DNA from: Candidatus Peribacteraceae bacterium
GTDB taxonomy: Bacteria > Patescibacteriota > Gracilibacteria > Peribacterales > Peribacteraceae
Assembly (NCBI GenBank): GCA_018061945.1
Contig: JAGOTD010000002.1
Coordinates: 124,001 to 188,000 of the forward strand
Reading direction: 5' to 3'
DNA: 64,000 bases
In this document: one piece after another, positions 57-36,277 of the stretch
Layout of the letters: the number at the start of each line of letters is the position of its first letter
Numbering within the stretch: the stretch's first letter is position 1
Made by a program: the position numbers and the translations under genes
Notes under the pieces: model-generated
What the model was told of the DNA's origin: nothing
Seen by the model: only the letters and a program-made list of their open reading frames with translations
Database searches by the model: none

Positions 57-1628
57 TTACGACACTATAATCTGACTCGGCACAATCGCGCCAAATTCTT
101 TCATGTCCTCTTGTCTCTGGAAAAGATACGCAAGTAGCCATAGTCCGCCAACGACGTAGAGAATAGACGGAACAAGCGTGAGTGAAATGGCGTTGAGCGT
201 GGAGCTGGGGTCCATGCCAAGAACGCCGCCAATACTGGTCGGATTCCCCGGCAATATATCGGGCAGAGTGACGATAAAATCAAAAATACCGTGAATGATG
301 AATGCGAAGATAAGTCCGCGGGCGATGTTGTAATGGTAGAAAATCACTTCCGGTTTCAGTTCCAGTATGCGATGCAGCAACGCGATAATTGGATGTCGTT
401 TGCCATCGGCAAACTGTGTACGCATAAGCGGCGAGGCGAAAAAAGCGAGTCCCACATAGTAACCCATGACGCCGGTGGAGAGAATGTGCACCATGTTGGT
501 CAAAATCGATCGGCCAATCACGTTGCCGAAAAATGCGCCCCACATTGGCTGTTCTGGCGTGAGTAAATAGTTTTGCACGAAGGCGATAAAGTAATTCGGA
601 TTTTCCAGATTTTCTGCAAACGCAAAACCGATTGCCACCACAATCGCCAATTGCAGGACATCATCAATTGAACGGAAAAAGGTGTCACTGCTATGGCGCA
701 GCACCCAATACTTACTCGCTTCTTCTATGACACCAACAATCAAGTATGTGACAAGCGTTGCGAGTACAGTCGCTTTTGTGCCGGCTGGCGTACTAAAAAT
801 GCCGCCACCCACAAAGTCGTTCGCTGCACCGCTAAAATTGATCGGCACAATTTTGAACAAAAAGAAGTTGAGTTCGATCGACTGTTTTTGCAGCATGTCG
901 TAAAACAAAATCGGTGCGGTAGACAGCATGCCGGCAAAAAATGCGAGCAATACAACGCTCAAGCGCTGAATGTGATACGACAGAAACAGGCTGCACCAGA
1001 TAATAACCGGAATAAGCGCAACGGTTGTCGCAAGGCCAATTGCCACTAGTTCATCGTGTGTTTTGCCGCGCAGCATCGCGTAGGTCACCCAAAAAATAAA
1101 TGTCCCAAGCACCGTCGCTTTTATACTCACGCTCCAGGGCCCAAACAGAAATTTCCAACCGAGAACGATACAGGTGATCCCGAGTGCCATTAAAAACGGA
1201 TCCTCGCTGAGGCCGGTTTCAAAGAACGCGCGTTTAAAACTGATGAGAATCCAGGTGACGACGGTGCCGAGTACAAAGGCAAAGAAATAGCGATAGCGAT
1301 CTTTGGAGCCATGCCAGCGAAGTTGATCAAACACGCCAAAGGCTAAAATCGCTATAAACACTATTACCGTACGCGTCACATTTACCTGTGAGCCAATACC
1401 ACCAGCCGACAGGATATTAAGGCTGGAATACTTAAGCGCGAGTGCAAAGAGTCCAAGAGTCAGAACACCGGCAATAGCGGCCATGGTCTGCGATGGTAGA
1501 AACGGATGGTGTTTTTCGACAGTTGCCAGCGATTGTTTATCGACCATTTTGACATTCATGACCCCTGTCCACAGCCGAATGAGCAGGACGCTTACCAGGA
1601 GCGCGATAATGGCAAAGGCGATTTGCAT
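57..1628 (-). CDS. PrsW-like intramembrane metalloprotease
   Basis: Polytopic membrane protein of 523 residues with PrsW-family signatures: an EEASK motif near residue 302, followed by FAFAENLEN, a membrane His in NMVHILSTG, and HGIFDF near the C-terminus. PrsW-family enzymes cleave membrane proteins inside the bilayer. The N-terminus has a TM segment, then SLATVEKHHPFLP (residues 33-45), then another TM. A near-identical module opens the giant surface protein at 25622. The start chosen is ATG 1628. A TGC-TAAAAT -10 element (1651-1643) lies just upstream and overlaps the more upstream GTG (1652), which would otherwise add 8 residues. Family is well supported; the substrate is unknown. Confidence 0.85.
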   Translation of the reverse strand: MQIAFAIIALLVSVLLIRLWTGVMNVKMVDKQSLATVEKHHPFLPSQTMAAIAGVLTLGLFALALKYSSLNILSAGGIGSQVNVTRTVIVFIAILAFGVFDQLRWHGSKDRYRYFFAFVLGTVVTWILISFKRAFFETGLSEDPFLMALGITCIVLGWKFLFGPWSVSIKATVLGTFIFWVTYAMLRGKTHDELVAIGLATTVALIPVIIWCSLFLSYHIQRLSVVLLAFFAGMLSTAPILFYDMLQKQSIELNFFLFKIVPINFSGAANDFVGGGIFSTPAGTKATVLATLVTYLIVGVIEEASKYWVLRHSSDTFFRSIDDVLQLAIVVAIGFAFAENLENPNYFIAFVQNYLLTPEQPMWGAFFGNVIGRSILTNMVHILSTGVMGYYVGLAFFASPLMRTQFADGKRHPIIALLHRILELKPEVIFYHYNIARGLIFAFIIHGIFDFIVTLPDILPGNPTSIGGVLGMDPSSTLNAISLTLVPSILYVVGGLWLLAYLFQRQEDMKEFGAIVPSQIIVS

Positions 1629-1642
1629 GAGAGAATCTAAGT

Positions 1643-1651
1643 ATTTTAGCA
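1643..1651 (-). promoter_or_regulatory. Extended -10 promoter of PrsW-like gene
   Basis: TGC-TAAAAT on the minus strand, 14 bases before ATG 1628, which predicts a leader of only about 7 bases. Confidence 0.5.
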
Positions 1652-1793
1652 CAAATTATGGCTTCAGTCCAAGTATTACAGGTCTGCCCATGGCTAGAAA
1701 AGCCTGTATACGTAAGAAAATGGCAGATGATACGTCTACCTATGAATATTTGCGCTGTCCGTCTATACACTTATAATCTTGGACTCGGAATAA

Positions 1794-3289: not shown

Positions 3290-4388
3290 AGTTATCGCCG
3301 GTGCGAAACAGTGCAATGAATTCCAGTGGATGCATTGATTTTGCCTTCGCTTCAATGTTACTTGGCAGTGAGTGTGGCTTGTAGGGCTGATGCGTCGTTT
3401 CGCCTGGAATTTCTAGGTCCACAGCAAGATGCAGATGAGGAGCAGTCGTTTCGCCAGTCATGCCGACTGTGCCGATAGTTTGCCCGGGTGTAATGCTCTG
3501 GTCTTTTTTCACGAACACCGTATCAAAATGGCCGTAGATAGAATAAAAAACGCCGAGTGACGTACAGTGACGAATCATCACATAATTGCCTAGATCGGTC
3601 TTTGTACCCGTCGCTGCTACAGTTCCGCCGCCAAGTGCGCCAATGGGCGTGCCGAAGGCTAGCTTGAGGTCGAGCGCTGCATGAGTTCCGGTCCACTGCC
3701 CGGCATCAATATTATACGAACCGAAATACCGTGTGGAATAGAACAATTTTGCCGTAATGGCCGCAATCGATTCATCAGTATTTTGCGATGTGAAGCTGCT
3801 CATCGGCTTGGTTAAAACCGAGAGATCATAGCGAGGAATTGCCACAAAATCGTCAGCTGTCATTTGACTGTAACTGCGATTCCATTCACTGGGCGTATGC
3901 ATAGCTCCCCAATTTGGTACTTTGACGACCGGATACGACGTATGCAAAAGTGGCGCACAATTTTCTCTCACAGCTTGGGTTGCAGATACAGATGAAGATG
4001 AAGCTGTTTGCTGATTGATCGCATTTGGCTGAATAGCCTCAGATACATTCGTTGTCTGTGTCAGGCGCGATGTTGCATTGGAAGGAGTATCGATAGGTTG
4101 CAGTTGTGTTTGCGATTGAACAGGATTCGATGGACTGACAGTGTCGGCTAAGCGAAATGCAGCGCTGGATGAAAGCGCTGAAGCTGCATAATGGACTATC
4201 TGAGGATTACCTTTTTTTACAGATGAGACAGTCGACGCACAATTTTTCTGCTGCAAACATGGCCCCGCATACGATGCAAAATCGTCGATAAAATAAGCCT
4301 GCGTAGCCAGTGTATCTACAATAATCGTGCAGCTGGTAATAATCGCCAGACACGTGAGTGTTCCCACAAAATGTTCGTAGCGTTGCAA
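3288..4388 (-). CDS. M23 (LytM-type) zinc peptidase
   Basis: 366 residues with an N-terminal hydrophobic segment (CLAIITSCTIIVDTLA), so exported and probably anchored. The middle, about residues 60-140, is a Ser/Thr/Gln-rich low-complexity linker. The C-terminal M23 domain has the zinc motif HAALD (H236, D240) and HLHLAVD (H318, H320), with GxLGGGTVAATG and NYVMIRH between. Such enzymes cut peptide cross-bridges of peptidoglycan or act as division and envelope scaffolds. All metal and catalytic residues are present, so it is likely active. Its own extended -10 lies about 60 bases upstream. Confidence 0.85.
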   Translation of the reverse strand: MQRYEHFVGTLTCLAIITSCTIIVDTLATQAYFIDDFASYAGPCLQQKNCASTVSSVKKGNPQIVHYAASALSSSAAFRLADTVSPSNPVQSQTQLQPIDTPSNATSRLTQTTNVSEAIQPNAINQQTASSSSVSATQAVRENCAPLLHTSYPVVKVPNWGAMHTPSEWNRSYSQMTADDFVAIPRYDLSVLTKPMSSFTSQNTDESIAAITAKLFYSTRYFGSYNIDAGQWTGTHAALDLKLAFGTPIGALGGGTVAATGTKTDLGNYVMIRHCTSLGVFYSIYGHFDTVFVKKDQSITPGQTIGTVGMTGETTAPHLHLAVDLEIPGETTHQPYKPHSLPSNIEAKAKSMHPLEFIALFRTGDN

Positions 4389-25621: not shown

Positions 25622-28600
25622 ATGAAAAACAATCATTTCCTTCACGGCGTAGTGACAGTATCGTTATTTGCACTGAATATTGTAATTATTACTGTTTTCT
25701 TGCTCAACAATACCTGGAACTCATATTTGCGAGGCGAAATGTCTTTGCAGGTTGCCTTGTTAGTATCGCCGGTATTATTCATTACACTGATGGTGCTCAC
25801 AATCGAGTGGAAAGGAATCGTTAATAGTCTCAAGGTCGAAGAAGAGTCGTTGGCGTCGGTTGAAAAAAAGCATCCGTACCTGCCAAAAGCTCCTCAGAGA
25901 ATTCTAACTGGCATTTTGAGCATGATTGCGATGGTGATTATTGTTCCGGTTATTACCAGAGCGGCAGCGTCATCGGGTGAAATACTTCACATGCTCTCGT
26001 CTGGCACTGGTTCAATTTTTGAAACTCAAGAGACGTCATCCGATTCATCGGTCAGCTCTTCTCTCGACGAAATAGATTCATCCTCCTCCGAAAGCCAGGA
26101 TCATGGAGCAGCAGACGAAATCGTGAATGCAGAGACCGGAGCGGTACTAACGGGCAGTGGTGCACTCGAAACCGGTAGCGGCTCTCTCTCATCGTCGGCA
26201 GGTTCTGGTGCAGAGGTCATTAGCTCATCTGCGCAGTCCGAAGCATCTGGTGAAGTGCATGCACCAGTGTCATCTGTCAGTTCCTCAAGCAGTGTGTCGA
26301 GCGTGAGTGATGTTGTATTGTCGCCAGCAGTCCTGACACTGGAAAGCAGAGATGGCAAGCTGGCCTACGAAGCATCCGACAGTCCGTCGTTTACGCTTGT
26401 AGAAACATCCATCGCCCACAACGATCCTTCGGTTGGCGCAGATGGAACGCTCAAAGATCAAAAGGCGCTGGAAGAAATTGTCCGTTCGGTAGTGAATGCG
26501 CAGGATATTCAGGACGCAATGTCCAAGGCAATCATCGATCATGCTCGAGGGGAAATTGCCAAGCAGGTAACCGAGGATACGGTGAGCGTCAATACTCTCA
26601 AGCAGATTTCGGAATCTTCCGATACTGGTGCGCCGCGTTTGGATGCCATGCAGAGCCAGGTTCAGGCGAACATCGACGTCAACGATTCTATTAAAACCGA
26701 AGTGTCGCAGACCGTGTCGCGAGACGAGGCAGTGCAAACGGCACTCGATGTATTGTCGACCGAAGAAGTAAAGCAATCGATTGTCGAGAATATCGTGAGC
26801 GACATTCTCGACACACTCGCAAGCGGCGACTCGACAGTGGTAAGCGTGGACGACGCAACCGTGTTCCAAGCAGCGGTCGAGGTAAATGCCGCAGCCGTCG
26901 ATGCAGCGGAAAAATCGGTTCTTACAAGCGTTGAGAGTAACAGTGATATCAAGCAGTATATTGCCCAGGCAGTAGTTTCTTCCGCCGAAATGTCCGAGGA
27001 TTCATCTCTTGTATGGACTGATACGCAGGAAGCAGCCCAAGTCGACAGCAATCCTATTATCACCGTTCGCTTGACTGACAAGAATGGAAAAGTGCTCTAT
27101 CCAAACTATCACTTTAAACGCGGTTCAGTTGTCCTGGTACTTGAGCCGGAGCAATCATTTACACCTGGCGTGTACCTGTTGGAAGTAGAGATTACGAATC
27201 CACTGACTGGAGAAGTGACAACGCAGACAGAGGAATTTGCTTGGGGAGTATTAGCGATGAATCCGGATAAAGATACTTATAGCCCAAGCGAAACTGCTCA
27301 TATTGCTATTGGCGTGCTGGATGATGATGGCGAAATGGTTTGTGATGCAGATGTGACATTGACTGTACAAAAGCCAGACGGATCGACGATGCAGATGCAA
27401 ACATCCGATGGCAGTATCCGCATGAATTCATCAGCTTGCTCAACAAAAAACTCGATGCAGGTAACACCGGACTTCGAGACCGATCTGTTGCTCAGCCAGG
27501 CCGGAACATACTCACTGACACTCGAGGCGCAAACGCCCAACGGCACTCACAGTATCACGTCCTCCATTCTTGTCTCCGGTAACTTGGCGTATTCCATACG
27601 GCGCACTGCTGCCACTCGCTTGTATCCATTCGGTTGGTCGCCCATGACGATTGTCGTACGTTTCAATGAGCAGTTTTCGGGTACTTTAACCGATATACTG
27701 CCCGAGGAATTTACCGTTCGTTCCGACGATTCATCGGCAGTGATTACAAAGCAGGAAGGAACAGGTTCGCTTATTTCCTGGACAGGATTGTGGGCCGCCG
27801 GAGAGACAGCGACATTTGCTTACCAATATGATGCGCCCGATATTTCGCCGCAATTCTATTTGGTCGGTCCACTTTCGCTGCGCGGCAATGCAACCGAAGC
27901 GCAAGAAAGCCGAAGCTGGCAAATCGCTAACGATGCTATAAACGTCAGTATTACAGGTACTGCCTATTCCAATGAAGGTATAACCCCTCTTGCTAGCAAA
28001 ACAGTTGCCGTCTCTCTAAATGGAGCCGCGGCGGCTGGCACGGCTGTTACAGATGCCGGTGGACAGTACACAATCACAGGTTTGACTTTGACTGGTGGCA
28101 CCATTGTCACTGTGTACATGGAAAATGAAACAGAGGATGCGGTGACGGTATCGACTGGATCCGGCGGGGCAATGACAGGAATGACCTTGTACCAGAACCA
28201 GCTAATCGTAAAATCTGGTACCGGCGGCAATGCAACAGTCAGTACTGCCCTGATGGCTGTGGCCGATAACAATGCTGATGCGGATATTTCTGCCTTGTAC
28301 TCAATTTCGAGCAATAATACGACTGTTGCTGCCGGCAAAAAACTGTCTATCTGGACGGGTGCGACACTCAGTCTGGCCGGCACACTGTCAGCCAGCAGAG
28401 TACATTTGCAGGGCTCGCTGCGACCGAATAACTTTGCCTTAACGTTCAGTAACCATTATACGCAATCGGGTGGAACGTTGTTTGGTTCGTCCGGTACCCG
28501 CACGATAGGAAATATTACTATTGATAGCGGAACATTTATATCGACATCCGGAACTATGACTGTGTCGGGTTCTTATATACGAGACGGGGGAACGTTTACA

Positions 28601-31600
28601 CATAATTCCGGAACTGTATCATTTACTTCACCCAGAACTGCGTCTATTGATGTGCCAACCACCGAAACATTTAGCGGATTTCATGTGAACACTGGTGTCA
28701 ATGCCATCAACATTCAAATCGGTACAGGTGATACCATTACAGCAGTTGGTACTGCTCAATTACAGAATGGTAAGCTGAAAACAGGAACTCTCAATGTGCA
28801 AGCAGCATTTACAAATAATTCCACGTGGGACGGGGGAGCATATTTCTTAAATTTTTCGGGTAGTGCCAACCAAGCCTGGGCAGTTGGCGGATCTACATCG
28901 GATGCGTTTGTTACCATTAATAAATCGTCAGGAAAGCTCACAATGCCAGTTGGAAATAATTATAGTACGAATACGGGGATAACATTATTGTCTGGCAGCT
29001 TTTCTATGCAAAATGCCAGTTTTACTATGGGAGGAGGTCTCACAGTCGCAGCAGGGACAACCATGGTGTCTACTGGATCTATTGCATTTACGCCCACCAG
29101 CGGCAACACAGCTACTATAAATTTCGCAGGCTCCGGCTACATTCTCAATGCATCTCTTGCAGGCGCAACATCCGGGAGAATCGCAATTCAAACGGGATCA
29201 ACTTTGCCGATACGCGGAAGACTGACTCTCTCCAATAATGCCATTATCAACGGAGGCGGAATAATAGATGTGAAAGGAAATATTCTGGAGTCTGGAGTAG
29301 GCTTAACAGGAAATGCGCCTGTGCGTTTAAGCGGCACCGGCACTCAGTTTATCATAAGGCAGGGATCGAGCGTCTTTCATGGCGGCTCGCTGATTATTGC
29401 TAAGCCGTCGGGGCAGGTTACACTGTCGGGTGCGTTAACTTTAAATACCACGAACCAGAATCTGTTGCTGACAGGTGGCACATTGAACTTGAATGGCTAT
29501 AACTTGACCGTTAACAACATATTTACAGTTGGAACCGGTACAACGCTCAAACTCAAAGGAACAGAAACAATTACCGGCGGTCCGGACTTTATTCACCGCG
29601 GTGCAACAACGTACTACGCCGAGCCAAGCCAGACTCTCCGGCTTAAAAACTTTACGCCGAATTATCAGAACATCGTTTTGGGTTCGACAGGCTCCGCTAT
29701 TTTCCGGCCAAGCAAACAGGGAATGACTATGTCTGGAACGCTCACCATAAGCGGAGGAACATTGCAGTTTGACGGCGGCCAGTCGCTTACGATCTCCGGT
29801 TCATACCTGCGTACAGGCGGTGCATTCTCGTCTGGAACAGGAACGATCAATCTTCTGACACAGGGCCAGACAAAAACATTCAACGAAACTTCGCCAGTGT
29901 ATAACCTGAATATCGATGACGGACTGATCGGTTACTGGAAATTTGATGAAGGAGTCGGAACAGTTGCCAAAGATAGCAGTCGTTCCGGCTATAACGGAAC
30001 GCTCACAAGCGATCCGGTTTGGTCGGGGTCCAGCTTGTACTCTAGTAAGTTCTACAATCCAACATCACTGCGATTTGATGGGAATAACGATTATGTAAAT
30101 ATTGGCGATGTCGATGAGATTGATACAGCTCAGCAGCTTACCGTCTGTGCCTGGGTAAAGCACCTATCGGATGCAATTGACCAGGGAATCATACATAAAA
30201 GAGCAACTTCCAGTCCGGGAATATTACTTTTCCGTGATGAAGTTGGGTTAACTGCCAAAACTGATATCTATACTTTCTATATTGAAGGACCCGGGTTGGT
30301 ATCAACTCGTGTCGACACTGCGACAAATAGTGCGACTGCAGGAGTTTGGCGCCATGTCTGTGGTGTGTACAGGGCAAATAATGCAATTGGATTGCAGTTG
30401 TTTATCAATGGAGCGCAAGCGGCAACACCCGTGAGTACTGTTGGTTTTTCAACGAACATTGATGCTGGTAGCCAATCACTGCAAATCGGAACAAGAGACA
30501 GTAACCTGCCGCATCACGGCTCAATCGACGATGTTCGCATTTACAATCGTGCACTCTCGGCTTCCGAAATCAATGCACTTGCAACAGGTAATCCTGCAAC
30601 CGGTTCGGGCAAACTCCTTCTGGCATCTAACTTAGATATCAACGGAAATCTCGGTATCTATGGTTCTACACTCGACGTATCCGCATCAAATTACGCTGTC
30701 AACATTGCCGGTAACGTACAGAACTCCGGAGATTTTACCAAACGCTCTGGAACAGTCACGCTCGACGGAACATCTGCACAAACAGTGTCCGGTTCTACTC
30801 TCTGGAACAATATCTCTAAAACGGTATCTGCAGCTCAGTCATTGTTCTTGGACTATACCTCTCGACAATCCGCTTCCGGTGCTCTGACACTTCGCGGTGC
30901 TTCCTCTAACCTACTGTCACTTCGCTCCACTCGAGCGGGATCTGGTGCTCGGTTGCTGCTGGACTCAGACGCAGGAACGCAAACCATTGACTACCTGAAT
31001 GTAAAAGATTCAGATGCATCGGGCGGTGCAACTCTGGTCTGTACGACATCAGCAGAAGGTTGCGTCGATGCTGGTAATAACAGCAACTGGTCGTTTTCTT
31101 CTAACTATTCTGTAAGTGGTCGCGCATTTTCCAACGAAGGAATAACGCCGTTGTCTGGAAAGACGGTATCGGTGTCAATTAACGGCGCAGCAGCTGTCGG
31201 AAATGCTGTCACAGATAGTAATGGTTATTATTCTGTAACAGGCATTTCGGCACTTACAGGAGGAACTCTTGTGACCGTATATCTAGACAACAACACCGAA
31301 AAAGCAGTCACGATATCTACTGGTTCGGGTAGCAGCATGACAGGTATAACTCTTTACCAGAATGAACTGATTGTCAGAACGGGTACAGGCGGAAACGCCA
31401 CTGTTTCTGCCGCCACACTCAACATTGCCGATAACAATGGCGACACAGATATTTCTTCTCTGTATTCTGTCTCAGGTTCGCCTAGTGCGATTTCTCTTGT
31501 CGCCGACAAAAAGTTGTACATCTGGTCGGGAGCAACTCTCTCTTTGGCCGGAATATTGACTGCCGATAAAGTGCACTTGGATGGATCGCTGCGGCCAAAC

Positions 31601-34600
31601 AACGTGGCAATGGTGATAAAAACAGAATTCACACAATCCGGTGGCACACTCTTTGGCTCCACGGCCACGCAGACAATGGGAGATATCAGTATTGATAACG
31701 GAACATTTACGGCGACATCCAATACGCTTACCGCTTCGGGTTCGTATACGCGCACTGCCGGAACATTTACACATAACAATGGAACATTTCTTTTTTCGAC
31801 AGGTGCGCAGTCAAAGACCGTCAACGAAACATCTTCATTTAATAATCTTGCTATCGACGATGGACTGGTCGGTTACTGGAAATTGGATGAAGGGGCAGGG
31901 GCCGTTGCCAAAGATTCTTCTCGAAGTGCCAATAACGGATCAGTACTCAGTGGAGCCGTATGGTCCGGCTCCTCGCTCCCGGCGCTACGCTATTTAAATA
32001 ATAAATCGCTAAAATTTGACGGAGTCGATGATCGGGTCGTTATGTCGAATGCTACGAATGTGCAATTAAGTACAGGAACAATTTCGGCCTGGCTTAAGAC
32101 TGGCAATGCCGGCAGCGGATATCGCGGAATCATTACCAAGCAAGATGCATACGGACTGTTTTTGAAGGGAAATAACCTGACAGTGTATGACTGGGGCGGA
32201 GCCGCAGAGAGATTGACGAACGTGAATCTTGCCGACAATGCTTGGCATTTTGTAGCCTTCACGTTCCAAAGCGGCGTAACAAATGGCTCACGTATTTATA
32301 TTGATGGCGCGCTGAGCCTGACGACGACCATGACAATCGGCAATCAGTTGAGCAGTCCGAATCTTGGCGACGGCGGGACTCCGTCTTACAATCAGCAATT
32401 CGCAGGCAATATTGATGAAGCCCGCATCTATAACCGCGTGCTTAGCGCTTCAGAAATAAGAGCGCTCGCGCAGGGAAACCCGGCAACCGGTTCGGGCAAA
32501 CTCCTTCTGGCATCCAACCTGGATGTAAACGGTAACTTGGGAATCTACGGTTCGACGCTCGATGTATCGGCGTCCAACTACAGCGTCAACATTGCCGGTA
32601 ACGTACAGAACTCCGGAGATTTTACCAAACGTGCTGGAACAGTCACTCTCGACGGTTCATCTGCGCAGACAGTGTCCGGTTCCACTCTCTGGAACAATCT
32701 TTCGAAGACGGTAAGCTCAGCTCAATCGCTCTTCCTCGATTACTCCTCTCGCCAATCCGCCTCCGGTGCTCTGACACTTCGCGGTGCCTCCTCTAACCTA
32801 CTGTCACTTCGCTCCACTCGAGCAGGATCTGGTGCTCGGTTGCTGCTCGATTCAGATGCAGGTACGCAAACCATTGATTACCTGAATGTAAAAGATTCAG
32901 ATGCATCGGGCGGTGCAACTCTCGTCTGTATGGCAACATCCGAAGGTTGCGTCGATGCTGGTAATAACAGCAATTGGTCGTTTATTGCACCTGCTACTGG
33001 CACAGGATCAATTCTCGGGTTGGTCTTTAACGACCTCAACGGTAATGGTGTAAAAAGCGCATCCGAAACAACGGGTCTCGCATCTATTCCGGTTCTCTTA
33101 ACTGGTGCAACATCAACTGGCGCATCGGTGAGTAGAAGTACAACAACGAACTCACTCGGACAATACTTCTTCTCCGGTTCGATTATCAGCAATACATCGG
33201 GTTATACCATCACTGTGAACAGTGGAACGGCGCCGACCGGTTATTTGCGTACAAGCTTTAACTCGTCTGGCAGCAATGTGCTTGGAACCGGAGCGATTAT
33301 AAGAATCAATTTCGGTTACGTGCAGCCTTCGACTGGAACAGGAAAAGTCTATATCGATACAAACGATAACGGTCGCCTGGATACTGGCGAAACTACCGGT
33401 ATTTCCGGTGTAACGACAACGATCCTTGGCACAACGGCAACCGGCGGCACGATCAATCGTTCGACTACGACAAGCAGCACAGGTGGTTATCTCTTCTCGG
33501 GCCTCGCTCCAAGCCTTGGCCAGTACACATTTGGCGTTACTACGAATACCATTCCATCTGGCTATCGCGCAACCAACTTCACGAATTCCGGAGTTACCAT
33601 TCCTCAGGGCAATTCGGCTGTAACCGCCAACTTCGGATACTTCTGGTACGGCACCATGACTGGCTCTATCTTTATTGATACCAATGCCAACGGCGTCAAA
33701 GATAGCGGCGAAAATTCGACGTATAACAGCGGGGCAACAATTTCGGTTTCTGGCTTAACAGCAAGCGGTGGTTCACTCTCGATTACTCGTCAAACTACGA
33801 GCACCGGATCATTTACCCTTCAGGATGTTCCAACAAGCAATACGACCTATGCCGTCGCGCTCAGTGTTCCAAGTGGCTACCAGGTAACAACGGCAAGCAG
33901 TTTCAATCGATCCATTGCAGTTGGTCAAAATGCATCGATGAGTCTGTTCGGCCTTAAACGACTGTCATCAACTGGCACAATAAAGGGAGTTGTATTTAAC
34001 GACGAAAACGGCAACAGCCAAAAAAATGAAACCGAATCAGTCGGCCTTTCCACTGTCACAGTCACGCTCAACGGCCAGACCGAAACAGGGGCAACGCTCA
34101 GTCGCTCAACGAGTACAAACTCGCTTGGTCAGTACTTCTTCTCGGGAGCTCTGCTCAGTAACGCTTCCGGTTACACCGTGGCTGTCACAGCCAATACCTT
34201 GCCAGCTGGTTACTTGCGTACACGCTTCAACTCCTCTGGAAGCAATATTCTCACTGCAAACAGTTTGATAAATGTGCACTTCGGTTACGTGCAGGCATCC
34301 ACACTCAGCGGAACGGTCTATGTGGATGCGAATGAAAATGCGGTGCAGGATGTCGGCGAAACAACCATCTTCTCTGGTGCCACTCTCTCGCTTACTGGTC
34401 TTTCGGGAACTGGCGGCACAGTGGACCAATCAACAGTATCGAGTAGCACCGGCTCCTATATTTTCTCGAATCTACCAACGAGCAGCGGCAGCTTTATTCT
34501 CGTTATTACGCCACCGACTGGTTACACTACCACGTCTTCCAATAGCCGCATCGTGACATTCGGTACGGGTGGACAGCTCAAGATTCAACGCTTTGGATAC

Positions 34601-36277
34601 ATCCTCACTCCTGTCACAAGTTCCTCGAGCTCATCGACGTCGTCGTCTTCCGAAGGGGGAGTCTCTTCATCAACAGTCACTCTCCCAACCGGAGGCTCAC
34701 GCATTCGGTATACACCAATAGTTATTCAGCCGGAAATTGACGAAACAGGCGGAGGAGGCTCGTCGTCGGTTTCCTCAAACAGCAGTAGCGTACGCAGCAG
34801 CTCAAGCAGTAGTGTTTCCTCATCGAGTGCCAGTAGCGTTCCATGGAACCGATTACCCGTCTCGAGACAGCCGATTCTTCCGGCAGCTTCTGTCGCGCAA
34901 GATACCACCGAATTTATCTTTAACCAGCAGACTGAGACGGTCGCAGATACATTGGATAATCGATGGAACGATATTCAAAAACAGGCAGAAGACACAGTGC
35001 AAACAGTCCGTCAGTCCGTCTCTGCTGGTGTACAAACGACACAACAGACTGTTCAATCAGCAATTGATATGACAGCATCGACTCTTCGCACAGCTGCCAC
35101 AAGCATTGCTGCAGGGGCAAATGCCATTGGTACGCGCATTGCAAGCTTTGGAGTACGTGCACAAAATAACGTCGCCTCGGCCGGTAATCGCCTTGGTTTT
35201 TCATTGGCTGATGTGACGACCCATGCGGCCGTTGCTACCGCAAACTCACTTGCGATTTCATACAAGACAGTGGCGCTTGCTGTGTACAGTACACGCACCA
35301 CAGGATCGCTTATGTTCTCGGGTCTGAACGTCGCACTCGTCGATAACAACAAAAATATTCGCGCTGCTGCCGAAGTGATAGCTGCCAACATCCGCGAAGG
35401 CGACATGCAGATTCGCCAGGTTGCCATGGCGATCTCCGCAGTTGGTAATACAGCGTTACAGGGAGTTGCCGATACAGTTGGAACGGGCGGAAAAGCTCTC
35501 CAGGACACAGCGGTGTCCATCGCTTCGACTCTCCGTACGAGCACCCAGTTTGTCGCTGGTTCATTGAACGCGGCAGCCGACACCATTGCCATGACAGTCG
35601 GTACATCTGTTGATCGTATGGGAATGTCACTCGATACAGCTGTCACATCGACCAATCGCGTTGTTGCGGTTGCCTACGTCTCGACTAGCAGATTTGCTTT
35701 GGAAACAGTCAGCGGTATCGGTTCGTTATCAGATCAGGCAAAAACATTATTGATCAAAAAAGACCTTGCGACAGAAGCACTGGATCGTCCTCTGCCTCCA
35801 AAGAAGTATCAGACAACGATCGCAATGAAAAATGATAAAGTTGTGATCGGTGAACTCAGCTTCAATATTCTGAAATCGTTTGGAGTACCGTATCGCCAGA
35901 CACCGGTTATCTTGTTCTCGACTCCCAAGATTGCCATTACCGACGATGCCGGTGATGTTACATTCCACGATGTCGAGGTCGGTACACACCACATCGAAAT
36001 TCATATCGATGACAAGACCGTTGAAACGCGCGAAGTGGTGGTCGAGCCTCCGGCCAAAATTAATCTAACCGAAGATTCGGCGGTGCATGTGAAGCTGCCA
36101 CTCATCGAAATCCAGGTTGAAACGCCAGCGCAGACAGCAATGCATAGCGCTGCGCCAGCAGGCATGCCATGGTATTGGCTCGTTGTCATTCCTCTGCTTA
36201 TGATCAACGCAGTCATGGGCTTCCTGCTCATTGTTCACAGACAGAGGCGTAAAGAAGAGGTGGCTGCAAAGATATAA
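25622..36277 (+). CDS. Giant multi-domain envelope protein (LamG, SD repeats)
   Basis: 3551 residues. Order: TM1 (5-30), TM2 (40-61), the SLASVEKKHPYLP motif (76-88), TM3 (about 92-110), Ser-rich linker (130-240), helical Ala/Val domain (250-470), Ig-like domains (480-770). Two large beta modules follow, starting near 775 and 1828. Each has a carboxypeptidase-regulatory-like domain, a Gly/Thr-rich beta-solenoid, and a LamG/concanavalin domain (1434-1655, 2081-2283). Then five SdrD-B-like domains with DxNxNGxxDxGE calcium-type loops (2460-2997), a Ser linker (3000-3077), a long amphipathic helical region (3094-3380), a beta domain (3393-3503), a C-terminal TM and a basic tail. Probably a surface fibre anchored at both ends, for cell contact or polysaccharide binding. 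Confidence 0.88.
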   Translation: MKNNHFLHGVVTVSLFALNIVIITVFLLNNTWNSYLRGEMSLQVALLVSPVLFITLMVLTIEWKGIVNSLKVEEESLASVEKKHPYLPKAPQRILTGILSMIAMVIIVPVITRAAASSGEILHMLSSGTGSIFETQETSSDSSVSSSLDEIDSSSSESQDHGAADEIVNAETGAVLTGSGALETGSGSLSSSAGSGAEVISSSAQSEASGEVHAPVSSVSSSSSVSSVSDVVLSPAVLTLESRDGKLAYEASDSPSFTLVETSIAHNDPSVGADGTLKDQKALEEIVRSVVNAQDIQDAMSKAIIDHARGEIAKQVTEDTVSVNTLKQISESSDTGAPRLDAMQSQVQANIDVNDSIKTEVSQTVSRDEAVQTALDVLSTEEVKQSIVENIVSDILDTLASGDSTVVSVDDATVFQAAVEVNAAAVDAAEKSVLTSVESNSDIKQYIAQAVVSSAEMSEDSSLVWTDTQEAAQVDSNPIITVRLTDKNGKVLYPNYHFKRGSVVLVLEPEQSFTPGVYLLEVEITNPLTGEVTTQTEEFAWGVLAMNPDKDTYSPSETAHIAIGVLDDDGEMVCDADVTLTVQKPDGSTMQMQTSDGSIRMNSSACSTKNSMQVTPDFETDLLLSQAGTYSLTLEAQTPNGTHSITSSILVSGNLAYSIRRTAATRLYPFGWSPMTIVVRFNEQFSGTLTDILPEEFTVRSDDSSAVITKQEGTGSLISWTGLWAAGETATFAYQYDAPDISPQFYLVGPLSLRGNATEAQESRSWQIANDAINVSITGTAYSNEGITPLASKTVAVSLNGAAAAGTAVTDAGGQYTITGLTLTGGTIVTVYMENETEDAVTVSTGSGGAMTGMTLYQNQLIVKSGTGGNATVSTALMAVADNNADADISALYSISSNNTTVAAGKKLSIWTGATLSLAGTLSASRVHLQGSLRPNNFALTFSNHYTQSGGTLFGSSGTRTIGNITIDSGTFISTSGTMTVSGSYIRDGGTFTHNSGTVSFTSPRTASIDVPTTETFSGFHVNTGVNAINIQIGTGDTITAVGTAQLQNGKLKTGTLNVQAAFTNNSTWDGGAYFLNFSGSANQAWAVGGSTSDAFVTINKSSGKLTMPVGNNYSTNTGITLLSGSFSMQNASFTMGGGLTVAAGTTMVSTGSIAFTPTSGNTATINFAGSGYILNASLAGATSGRIAIQTGSTLPIRGRLTLSNNAIINGGGIIDVKGNILESGVGLTGNAPVRLSGTGTQFIIRQGSSVFHGGSLIIAKPSGQVTLSGALTLNTTNQNLLLTGGTLNLNGYNLTVNNIFTVGTGTTLKLKGTETITGGPDFIHRGATTYYAEPSQTLRLKNFTPNYQNIVLGSTGSAIFRPSKQGMTMSGTLTISGGTLQFDGGQSLTISGSYLRTGGAFSSGTGTINLLTQGQTKTFNETSPVYNLNIDDGLIGYWKFDEGVGTVAKDSSRSGYNGTLTSDPVWSGSSLYSSKFYNPTSLRFDGNNDYVNIGDVDEIDTAQQLTVCAWVKHLSDAIDQGIIHKRATSSPGILLFRDEVGLTAKTDIYTFYIEGPGLVSTRVDTATNSATAGVWRHVCGVYRANNAIGLQLFINGAQAATPVSTVGFSTNIDAGSQSLQIGTRDSNLPHHGSIDDVRIYNRALSASEINALATGNPATGSGKLLLASNLDINGNLGIYGSTLDVSASNYAVNIAGNVQNSGDFTKRSGTVTLDGTSAQTVSGSTLWNNISKTVSAAQSLFLDYTSRQSASGALTLRGASSNLLSLRSTRAGSGARLLLDSDAGTQTIDYLNVKDSDASGGATLVCTTSAEGCVDAGNNSNWSFSSNYSVSGRAFSNEGITPLSGKTVSVSINGAAAVGNAVTDSNGYYSVTGISALTGGTLVTVYLDNNTEKAVTISTGSGSSMTGITLYQNELIVRTGTGGNATVSAATLNIADNNGDTDISSLYSVSGSPSAISLVADKKLYIWSGATLSLAGILTADKVHLDGSLRPNNVAMVIKTEFTQSGGTLFGSTATQTMGDISIDNGTFTATSNTLTASGSYTRTAGTFTHNNGTFLFSTGAQSKTVNETSSFNNLAIDDGLVGYWKLDEGAGAVAKDSSRSANNGSVLSGAVWSGSSLPALRYLNNKSLKFDGVDDRVVMSNATNVQLSTGTISAWLKTGNAGSGYRGIITKQDAYGLFLKGNNLTVYDWGGAAERLTNVNLADNAWHFVAFTFQSGVTNGSRIYIDGALSLTTTMTIGNQLSSPNLGDGGTPSYNQQFAGNIDEARIYNRVLSASEIRALAQGNPATGSGKLLLASNLDVNGNLGIYGSTLDVSASNYSVNIAGNVQNSGDFTKRAGTVTLDGSSAQTVSGSTLWNNLSKTVSSAQSLFLDYSSRQSASGALTLRGASSNLLSLRSTRAGSGARLLLDSDAGTQTIDYLNVKDSDASGGATLVCMATSEGCVDAGNNSNWSFIAPATGTGSILGLVFNDLNGNGVKSASETTGLASIPVLLTGATSTGASVSRSTTTNSLGQYFFSGSIISNTSGYTITVNSGTAPTGYLRTSFNSSGSNVLGTGAIIRINFGYVQPSTGTGKVYIDTNDNGRLDTGETTGISGVTTTILGTTATGGTINRSTTTSSTGGYLFSGLAPSLGQYTFGVTTNTIPSGYRATNFTNSGVTIPQGNSAVTANFGYFWYGTMTGSIFIDTNANGVKDSGENSTYNSGATISVSGLTASGGSLSITRQTTSTGSFTLQDVPTSNTTYAVALSVPSGYQVTTASSFNRSIAVGQNASMSLFGLKRLSSTGTIKGVVFNDENGNSQKNETESVGLSTVTVTLNGQTETGATLSRSTSTNSLGQYFFSGALLSNASGYTVAVTANTLPAGYLRTRFNSSGSNILTANSLINVHFGYVQASTLSGTVYVDANENAVQDVGETTIFSGATLSLTGLSGTGGTVDQSTVSSSTGSYIFSNLPTSSGSFILVITPPTGYTTTSSNSRIVTFGTGGQLKIQRFGYILTPVTSSSSSSTSSSSEGGVSSSTVTLPTGGSRIRYTPIVIQPEIDETGGGGSSSVSSNSSSVRSSSSSSVSSSSASSVPWNRLPVSRQPILPAASVAQDTTEFIFNQQTETVADTLDNRWNDIQKQAEDTVQTVRQSVSAGVQTTQQTVQSAIDMTASTLRTAATSIAAGANAIGTRIASFGVRAQNNVASAGNRLGFSLADVTTHAAVATANSLAISYKTVALAVYSTRTTGSLMFSGLNVALVDNNKNIRAAAEVIAANIREGDMQIRQVAMAISAVGNTALQGVADTVGTGGKALQDTAVSIASTLRTSTQFVAGSLNAAADTIAMTVGTSVDRMGMSLDTAVTSTNRVVAVAYVSTSRFALETVSGIGSLSDQAKTLLIKKDLATEALDRPLPPKKYQTTIAMKNDKVVIGELSFNILKSFGVPYRQTPVILFSTPKIAITDDAGDVTFHDVEVGTHHIEIHIDDKTVETREVVVEPPAKINLTEDSAVHVKLPLIEIQVETPAQTAMHSAAPAGMPWYWLVVIPLLMINAVMGFLLIVHRQRRKEEVAAKI
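30587..31096 (+). repeat. 510-base intragenic direct repeat, copy 1
   Basis: Encodes residues about 1656-1825 of the giant protein, from GNPATGSGKLLLASNLD to NNSNWSF. Nearly identical in DNA to 32474-32983, with stretches such as the ALTLRGASSNLLSLRSTRAGSG codons almost unchanged. Confidence 0.8.
32474..32983 (+). repeat. 510-base intragenic direct repeat, copy 2
   Basis: Encodes residues about 2285-2454. Same length as copy 1, so the two have diverged without insertions or deletions. Confidence 0.8.

Follow-up and report, generated by a model that had tools for sequence, protein, structure and literature searches.

The window analyzed here, a stretch of 64,000 nt, contains one giant gene whose product is probably a Sec-exported, C-terminally anchored, stalked modular surface tether (adhesin) of the Candidatus Peribacteria cell. 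This reading comes from comparing the sequence with that of related genomes, and we hold with good confidence the part of it that describes a surface tether with fixed ends and a variable middle. Conserved ends with a variable middle fit a tether in which the binding modules evolve and the ends that would serve export and anchoring stay fixed. The family is defined in this analysis by three features, all of which are found in the protein: an N-terminal block (A5), a juxtamembrane beta domain with a C-terminal TM (A3), and a helix of period 11/3.

The giant gene and its domains

The first-pass annotation of this DNA had proposed a single multi-domain gene of 3551 residues that takes up a sixth of the window in a presumably small genome, and the measurements agree on both counts. 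The ORF begins with ATG, contains zero internal stops and, at 10.7 kb, makes up 16.7% of the window, in a source genome of 1.37 Mb (94.6% complete, 15 contigs). It is flanked by leuS on one side and on the other by an rsmF-like methyltransferase gene, beyond which lie dnaG and rpoD, and the leuS/rsmF-like synteny is kept in the same-genus genome G001, where the homologue has 3110 aa and 60% identity. When the two homologues are compared, in most domains the proportion of nonsynonymous differences is much lower than that of synonymous ones (0.09 versus 0.71 in LamG domain A, for example), with synonymous sites near saturation and the ratios correspondingly rough. The first module (including its LamG domain and tail) and the beta domain with its TM are the most conserved parts in this comparison, and conservation is lowest in the Ser/Gly linkers and the helix.

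25622..36277 (+): whole gene, 3551 aa (ORF call and syntenic same-genus homologue of 3110 aa)
25622..25966 (+): 3-TM N-terminal module (residues 1-115), with a TM2-loop-TM3 hairpin, SLASVEKKHPYLP loop and signal-peptidase-like RAAA|S after TM3
25967..26320 (+): Ser/Gly-rich linker (residues 116-233), poorly conserved (34% identity to the same-genus homologue)
26321..27961 (+): conserved N-terminal block (residues 234-780), with a helical part and MG2-like/Ig-like beta domains, ending ..SRSWQIANDA (alignment A5; weak Pfam)
27962..31096 (+): module A (residues 781-1825), with a CPD-like domain, beta-solenoid, LamG and solenoid tail (Pfam, self-comparison)
30077..30574 (+): LamG (Laminin_G_3) domain A (residues 1486-1651; Pfam)
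31097..33016 (+): module B (residues 1826-2465), with a second CPD-like domain, solenoid, LamG (about residues 2080-2285) and tail (Pfam, self-comparison, AF2, fold match)
33017..34591 (+): five SdrD_B-like repeats with DxNxNG...E calcium-loop motifs (residues 2466-2990; Pfam, sequence)
34592..34849 (+): Ser-rich linker (residues 2991-3076; sequence, same-genus comparison)
34904..35761 (+): phase-locked amphipathic helix, period 11/3 (residues 3095-3380; periodicity analysis)
35804..36118 (+): juxtamembrane transthyretin/carboxypeptidase-regulatory-like beta domain (residues about 3395-3499; A3/A4, AF2, fold match)
36173..36271 (+): C-terminal TM helix and basic cytoplasmic tail (residues 3518-3550; hydropathy, AF2)
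57..1652 (-): PrsW-like intramembrane protease with the shared TM hairpin, SLATVEKHHPFLP loop, at its N-terminus (PF13367, E 2.4e-10; outside the giant gene, 24 kb away)

Hydropathy places the TMs at about residues 10-28, 43-61, 94-112 and 3520-3538, as expected from the three N-terminal helices and one C-terminal helix of the first-pass annotation, and the duplicated solenoid and LamG modules, the five calcium-loop SD-type repeats and the amphipathic helical region of about 290 residues that it described are likewise recovered. Pfam Laminin_G_3 (PF13385) matches two stretches (1.5e-43; 148.9 bits against a curated cut-off of 27.6) and SdrD_B (PF17210) matches five (5.4e-40; 136.5 bits, above the cut-off), with DxNxNG..E motifs present. 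Fold matches of the LamG domains include the PilC pilus lectin domain, CBM40 and pentraxins; matches of jelly-roll type to the receptor-binding domains of toxins were taken to mean a common lectin-like fold and no more. Given the LamG and SdrD_B folds and the calcium-loop motifs, the protein may bind host glycans and calcium. Other Pfam matches in the protein are weak (MG2 and CarboxypepD_reg), and those in the N-terminal block (MG2, InlK_D3 and DUF7603) are all below the cut-off. Nothing significant was returned by a PDB profile search with the N-terminal block, or by a search of the PDB by sequence with the C-terminal beta domain. The latter, one of the family's best-conserved parts, is modelled by AF2 with pLDDT mostly 80-90, and its fold matches transthyretin-like domains (carboxypeptidase M, Z 8.8).

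Modules A and B are 57-60% identical at the amino acid level over 484 and 256 columns. Their 527-bp tails are 86% identical in DNA sequence; the tail stretches at window positions 30590-31084 and 32477-32971 are 86-87% identical to each other and only 73-75% identical to the tail of the same-genus relative. Because the tails are closer to each other than to the relative, their similarity points to duplication, or to homogenization by gene conversion, within the gene after the split. The AF2 model of one module (A6) has a confident CPD-like domain followed by evenly spaced short strands, the confidence being limited to about the first 220 residues, and the short-strand region of the model is consistent with a beta-solenoid. 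The A6 fold search was dominated by LamG matches, and the solenoid part was barely probed by fold.

Fixed ends and an exchanged middle

The N-terminal block (residues 234-780, A5) is 31-62% identical in 10 homologues, and the beta domain with the C-terminal TM (A3) is 36-75% identical in seven. A scan of a species-level genome collection with the A3 profile gave 13 loci, most of them named Candidatus Peribacteria/Peribacteraceae or Peregrinibacteria and including the same-genus record; in these sequence searches, the gene family was found only in Ca. Peribacteria (Peregrinibacteria). With its C-terminal part matched in 8 of the 59 genomes searched, the giant protein is not found throughout the group, though assemblies often break inside the gene. 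Some of the N-terminal 800 residues are matched in 19 of the 59, and matches to residues 1-115 alone fall on other proteins in these genomes.

The many related assemblies that break inside the gene could be taken to mean that the 3551-aa frame is a fusion or assembly artefact joining separate genes, and the first-pass annotation had named homologues consistently split into separate genes as the pattern that would point to this. Both conserved ends, however, lie in a single ORF in five genomes, with lengths of 3551 aa here, 3110 aa in G001, 4308 aa (from the first start codon) in G013, 5570 aa in G063 and 6664 aa in G059, and the remaining homologue frames stop at contig ends or at an assembly gap (an N gap inside the gene in G021). 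These intact homologous ORFs rule out the artefact for practical purposes, and we give it a negligible chance. In G027, two contigs share roughly 30 residues at their ends, and the gene is probably about 6200 aa long. In G014 (L044/L045/L046), a 2365-aa frame runs off contig C2 and an 8175-aa frame runs off contig C4, with RCC1 and Ig-like (Big_3-like) repeats; we infer that the two frames are parts of one gene with a length of 10,500 aa or more.

A search for homologues to see which modules vary, as suggested in the first-pass annotation, revealed that the ends are kept and the middle is swapped. Module types in the middle of the various members are LamG, DUF2341, SdrD_B, Big_3, RCC1 and solenoid, with two LamG and five SdrD_B in the 3551-aa protein, one LamG and eight SdrD_B in the same-genus homologue, three LamG and three DUF2341 in G013, five LamG with DUF2341 and Big_3_5 in the N-terminal contig of G025, and RCC1 repeats in G014. 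In G008 (contig C21, L051/L052), the homologue is about 7,300 aa long and keeps the N-terminal block, with six SLH domains in place of the C-terminal beta domain and TM; judged by these domains, its SLH end is an exchanged surface anchor.

A structural surface-coat (S-layer-like) protein without an adhesive role might also be built from solenoid and SdrD_B spacers, and the presence of C-terminal SLH domains in a relative is in keeping with this alternative, as is the finding that, among solved structures, the module profile is best matched by an S-layer domain-containing protein (4qvs). Moreover, LamG domains can be purely structural, which counts against the adhesin reading. The module composition, however, is strongly variable even within the genus, unlike the expectation for a lattice-forming protein, and we consider an S-layer-like role unlikely compared to that of a surface tether.

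The amphipathic helix and the membrane anchor

The helix region (residues 3095-3380) is free of proline, and its hydrophobic period is 3.645 with a power of 26.9, the reference periods being 3.667 for 11/3 (hendecad) and 3.5 for heptad. By comparison, the best 286-residue segment in 13 proteins of the same window has a power of 10.1, which is also the maximum seen in 300 shuffles of the region, and the phase of the helix is coherent over six 44-residue segments (0.96, p 0.002). A period of 3.63-3.67 is present at the same place in 13/13 C-terminal members, and its power exceeds that of all 300 shuffles in 12 of them; long-range phase coherence alone reaches significance in roughly half of the 13 members, chiefly those with longer helices. 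Blastp comparisons among eight helices gave just two short similarities. Taken with the common period, this indicates that the periodicity is conserved and that the sequence mostly is not.

The helix is rich in Ala, Thr, Val and Ser and poor in aromatic residues, and its pattern would suit a hendecad coiled coil that runs almost straight as well as a lipid-binding 3-11 helix. AF2 modelling of the single chain yields long helices, but with low confidence (pLDDT about 40-49), a level at which the model does not separate a stalk, a bundle and a membrane-lying helix; fold matches of the region (STAT helices and designed bundles) were left uninterpreted because of this low confidence. If the helix were a lipid-binding 3-11 amphipathic helix lying on the membrane of the cell or its partner, as in perilipin 4 and the apolipoproteins, then the 11/3 period, the long phase coherence and the composition would all be accounted for, the Plin4 helix being likewise Thr/Gly/Val-rich and aromatic-poor (PMC5889406), and a weak Pfam Apolipoprotein match (E 0.19) points the same way. 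This match, however, scores 11.8 bits, far under the Pfam cut-off of 90, and membership of that family was rejected. In addition, hendecad coiled coils with small Ala-rich cores give the same period (PMC9858780), and the place of the helix between the binding modules and the membrane-proximal domain suits a stalk. We therefore regard the lipid-binding helix as somewhat unlikely and favour, tentatively and at slightly less than an even chance, a helix that acts as a coiled-coil stalk.

How the protein is held in the membrane depends on the fate of the N-terminal TMs. The double-anchored loop of the first-pass annotation, in which the N-terminal TMs and the C-terminal TM would all stay in the membrane and the ectodomain would form a closed loop, agrees with the hydrophobic segments (three at residues 10-112 and one at 3520-3538) and with a positive-inside pattern that permits both ends to be cytoplasmic. 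Nevertheless, the 3-TM start is limited to the present protein and two homologues, most homologues with a known start carry one signal-peptide-like segment, and TM3 ends RAAA|S in the 3551-aa protein and RATA|S in its same-genus homologue, RAAA|S being a plausible signal peptidase I site. Double anchoring was rejected as a family trait on account of the single-signal starts, and these, together with the cleavage-like sites of TM3, make a single C-terminal anchor likelier than a loop; for the 3551-aa protein, we judge the single anchor fairly probable and the loop a possibility of lesser weight. An LPXTG sortase signal is absent before the C-terminal TM, and the C-terminus reads ..MPWYWLVVIPLLMINAVMGFLLIVHRQRRKEEVAAKI.

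The TM2-loop-TM3 hairpin, with its (E)SLASVEKxHPYLP loop, is present in 22 of the 59 genomes searched, all from the same family-level group. Four proteins of the source genome carry it, namely the giant protein, an 804-aa exported protein, a PrsW-family protease and a polytopic protein with a 218-aa frame. The 804-aa protein (L039, 2320-4734 (-) of contig C7) begins with the same 3-TM module, has a Ser-rich linker and a single weak SdrD_B repeat, and is kept in the same-genus genome (L058); the same N-terminal module is also seen in large proteins with FG-GAP-like repeats (L074 and L075, frames of 1178-1403 aa). TM3 ends in signal-peptidase-like AxA/VxA-like sites (RAAA|S, RATA|S, VYA|M) in most large exported hairpin carriers, and such sites are absent in polytopic carriers. 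A functional link between the PrsW-like protease and the giant protein through the common hairpin is possible. The more specific idea, that the SLASVEKxHPYLP hairpin is a lineage-specific sorting/processing module joining giant surface proteins and the PrsW-type protease in one membrane complex, with the protease or a common partner controlling tether release or display, strikes us as quite improbable.

Proposed mechanism and known systems

The first-pass annotation had seen a giant multi-domain envelope protein suited to attachment, which the domains, the TMs and the small genome support. In the mechanism that we propose, the protein would be exported by Sec, with TM3 probably acting as a signal peptide that is cleaved after RAAA to leave a single anchor, and the C-terminal TM would hold it in the cytoplasmic membrane. 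The helix would oligomerize to form a stalk, an almost straight hendecad coiled coil of about 43 nm if continuous, and carry the rest of the protein across the cell wall and past it. Stiff spacers would be provided by the SdrD_B repeats, which are probably loaded with calcium, and by the solenoids, the LamG modules (RCC1 or DUF2341-LamG in relatives) would contact a partner cell or matrix, and module gain, loss and homogenization would retune binding as the two ends stay fixed. We regard attachment to another cell as an evenly balanced proposition; on this mechanism, the giant protein may bind a host.

To our knowledge, little is understood of how most ultrasmall CPR bacteria attach to their partners, and annotation of their giant proteins is rare. 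In the family defined here, both conserved ends can be named, the middle is exchangeable and the proposed stalk is open to test; with these ends, one could locate the corresponding gene in other Peribacteria and see which modules follow the partner organism.

Very large extracellular proteins of Peribacteria have already been reported, and what is new is a defined family with conserved ends. Large extracellular proteins with strain-level indels, for which a role in attachment was suggested, have been described in Ca. Peribacter; those of Ca. Peribacter riflensis, which belongs to the same class, include very large proteins (1219-3861 aa), several of them predicted to be extracellular and indel-variable, but the account compared here, by description, stresses cysteine-rich proteins and names no family with these conserved ends (PMC4736985). 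Peregrinibacteria, of the same phylum, are enriched in huge proteins of >5000 aa, a length that some homologues of the giant tether also exceed, although that study is a survey by length and its huge proteins are without COG assignment (PMC11573180). Giant surface proteins of up to 4163 aa, thought to recognize the host, are likewise described in the CPR bacterium Vampirococcus lugosii, but the domains named in that description, on which the comparison rests, are others (WD40, TPR-like and PKD; PMC8080830). Like the giant tether, the MSCRAMM Sdr proteins of Staphylococcus have several SdrD_B repeats that carry calcium-loop motifs and are likely spacers, whereas the tether is TM-anchored, is without a sortase motif and has no MSCRAMM A domain by Pfam. 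The peribacterial helix resembles that of perilipin 4 (PMC5889406) in being very long, 11-mer-periodic, Thr/Val-rich and aromatic-poor, but is bacterial and extracytoplasmic, and the likeness is one of period, length and composition. Finally, although the peribacterial helix is extracytoplasmic and adjoins a TM, unlike FilP and Scy, and its coiled-coil oligomer is a prediction from the period, it has in common with these hendecad coiled coils (PMC9858780) an 11-residue periodicity, an Ala-rich composition and great length.
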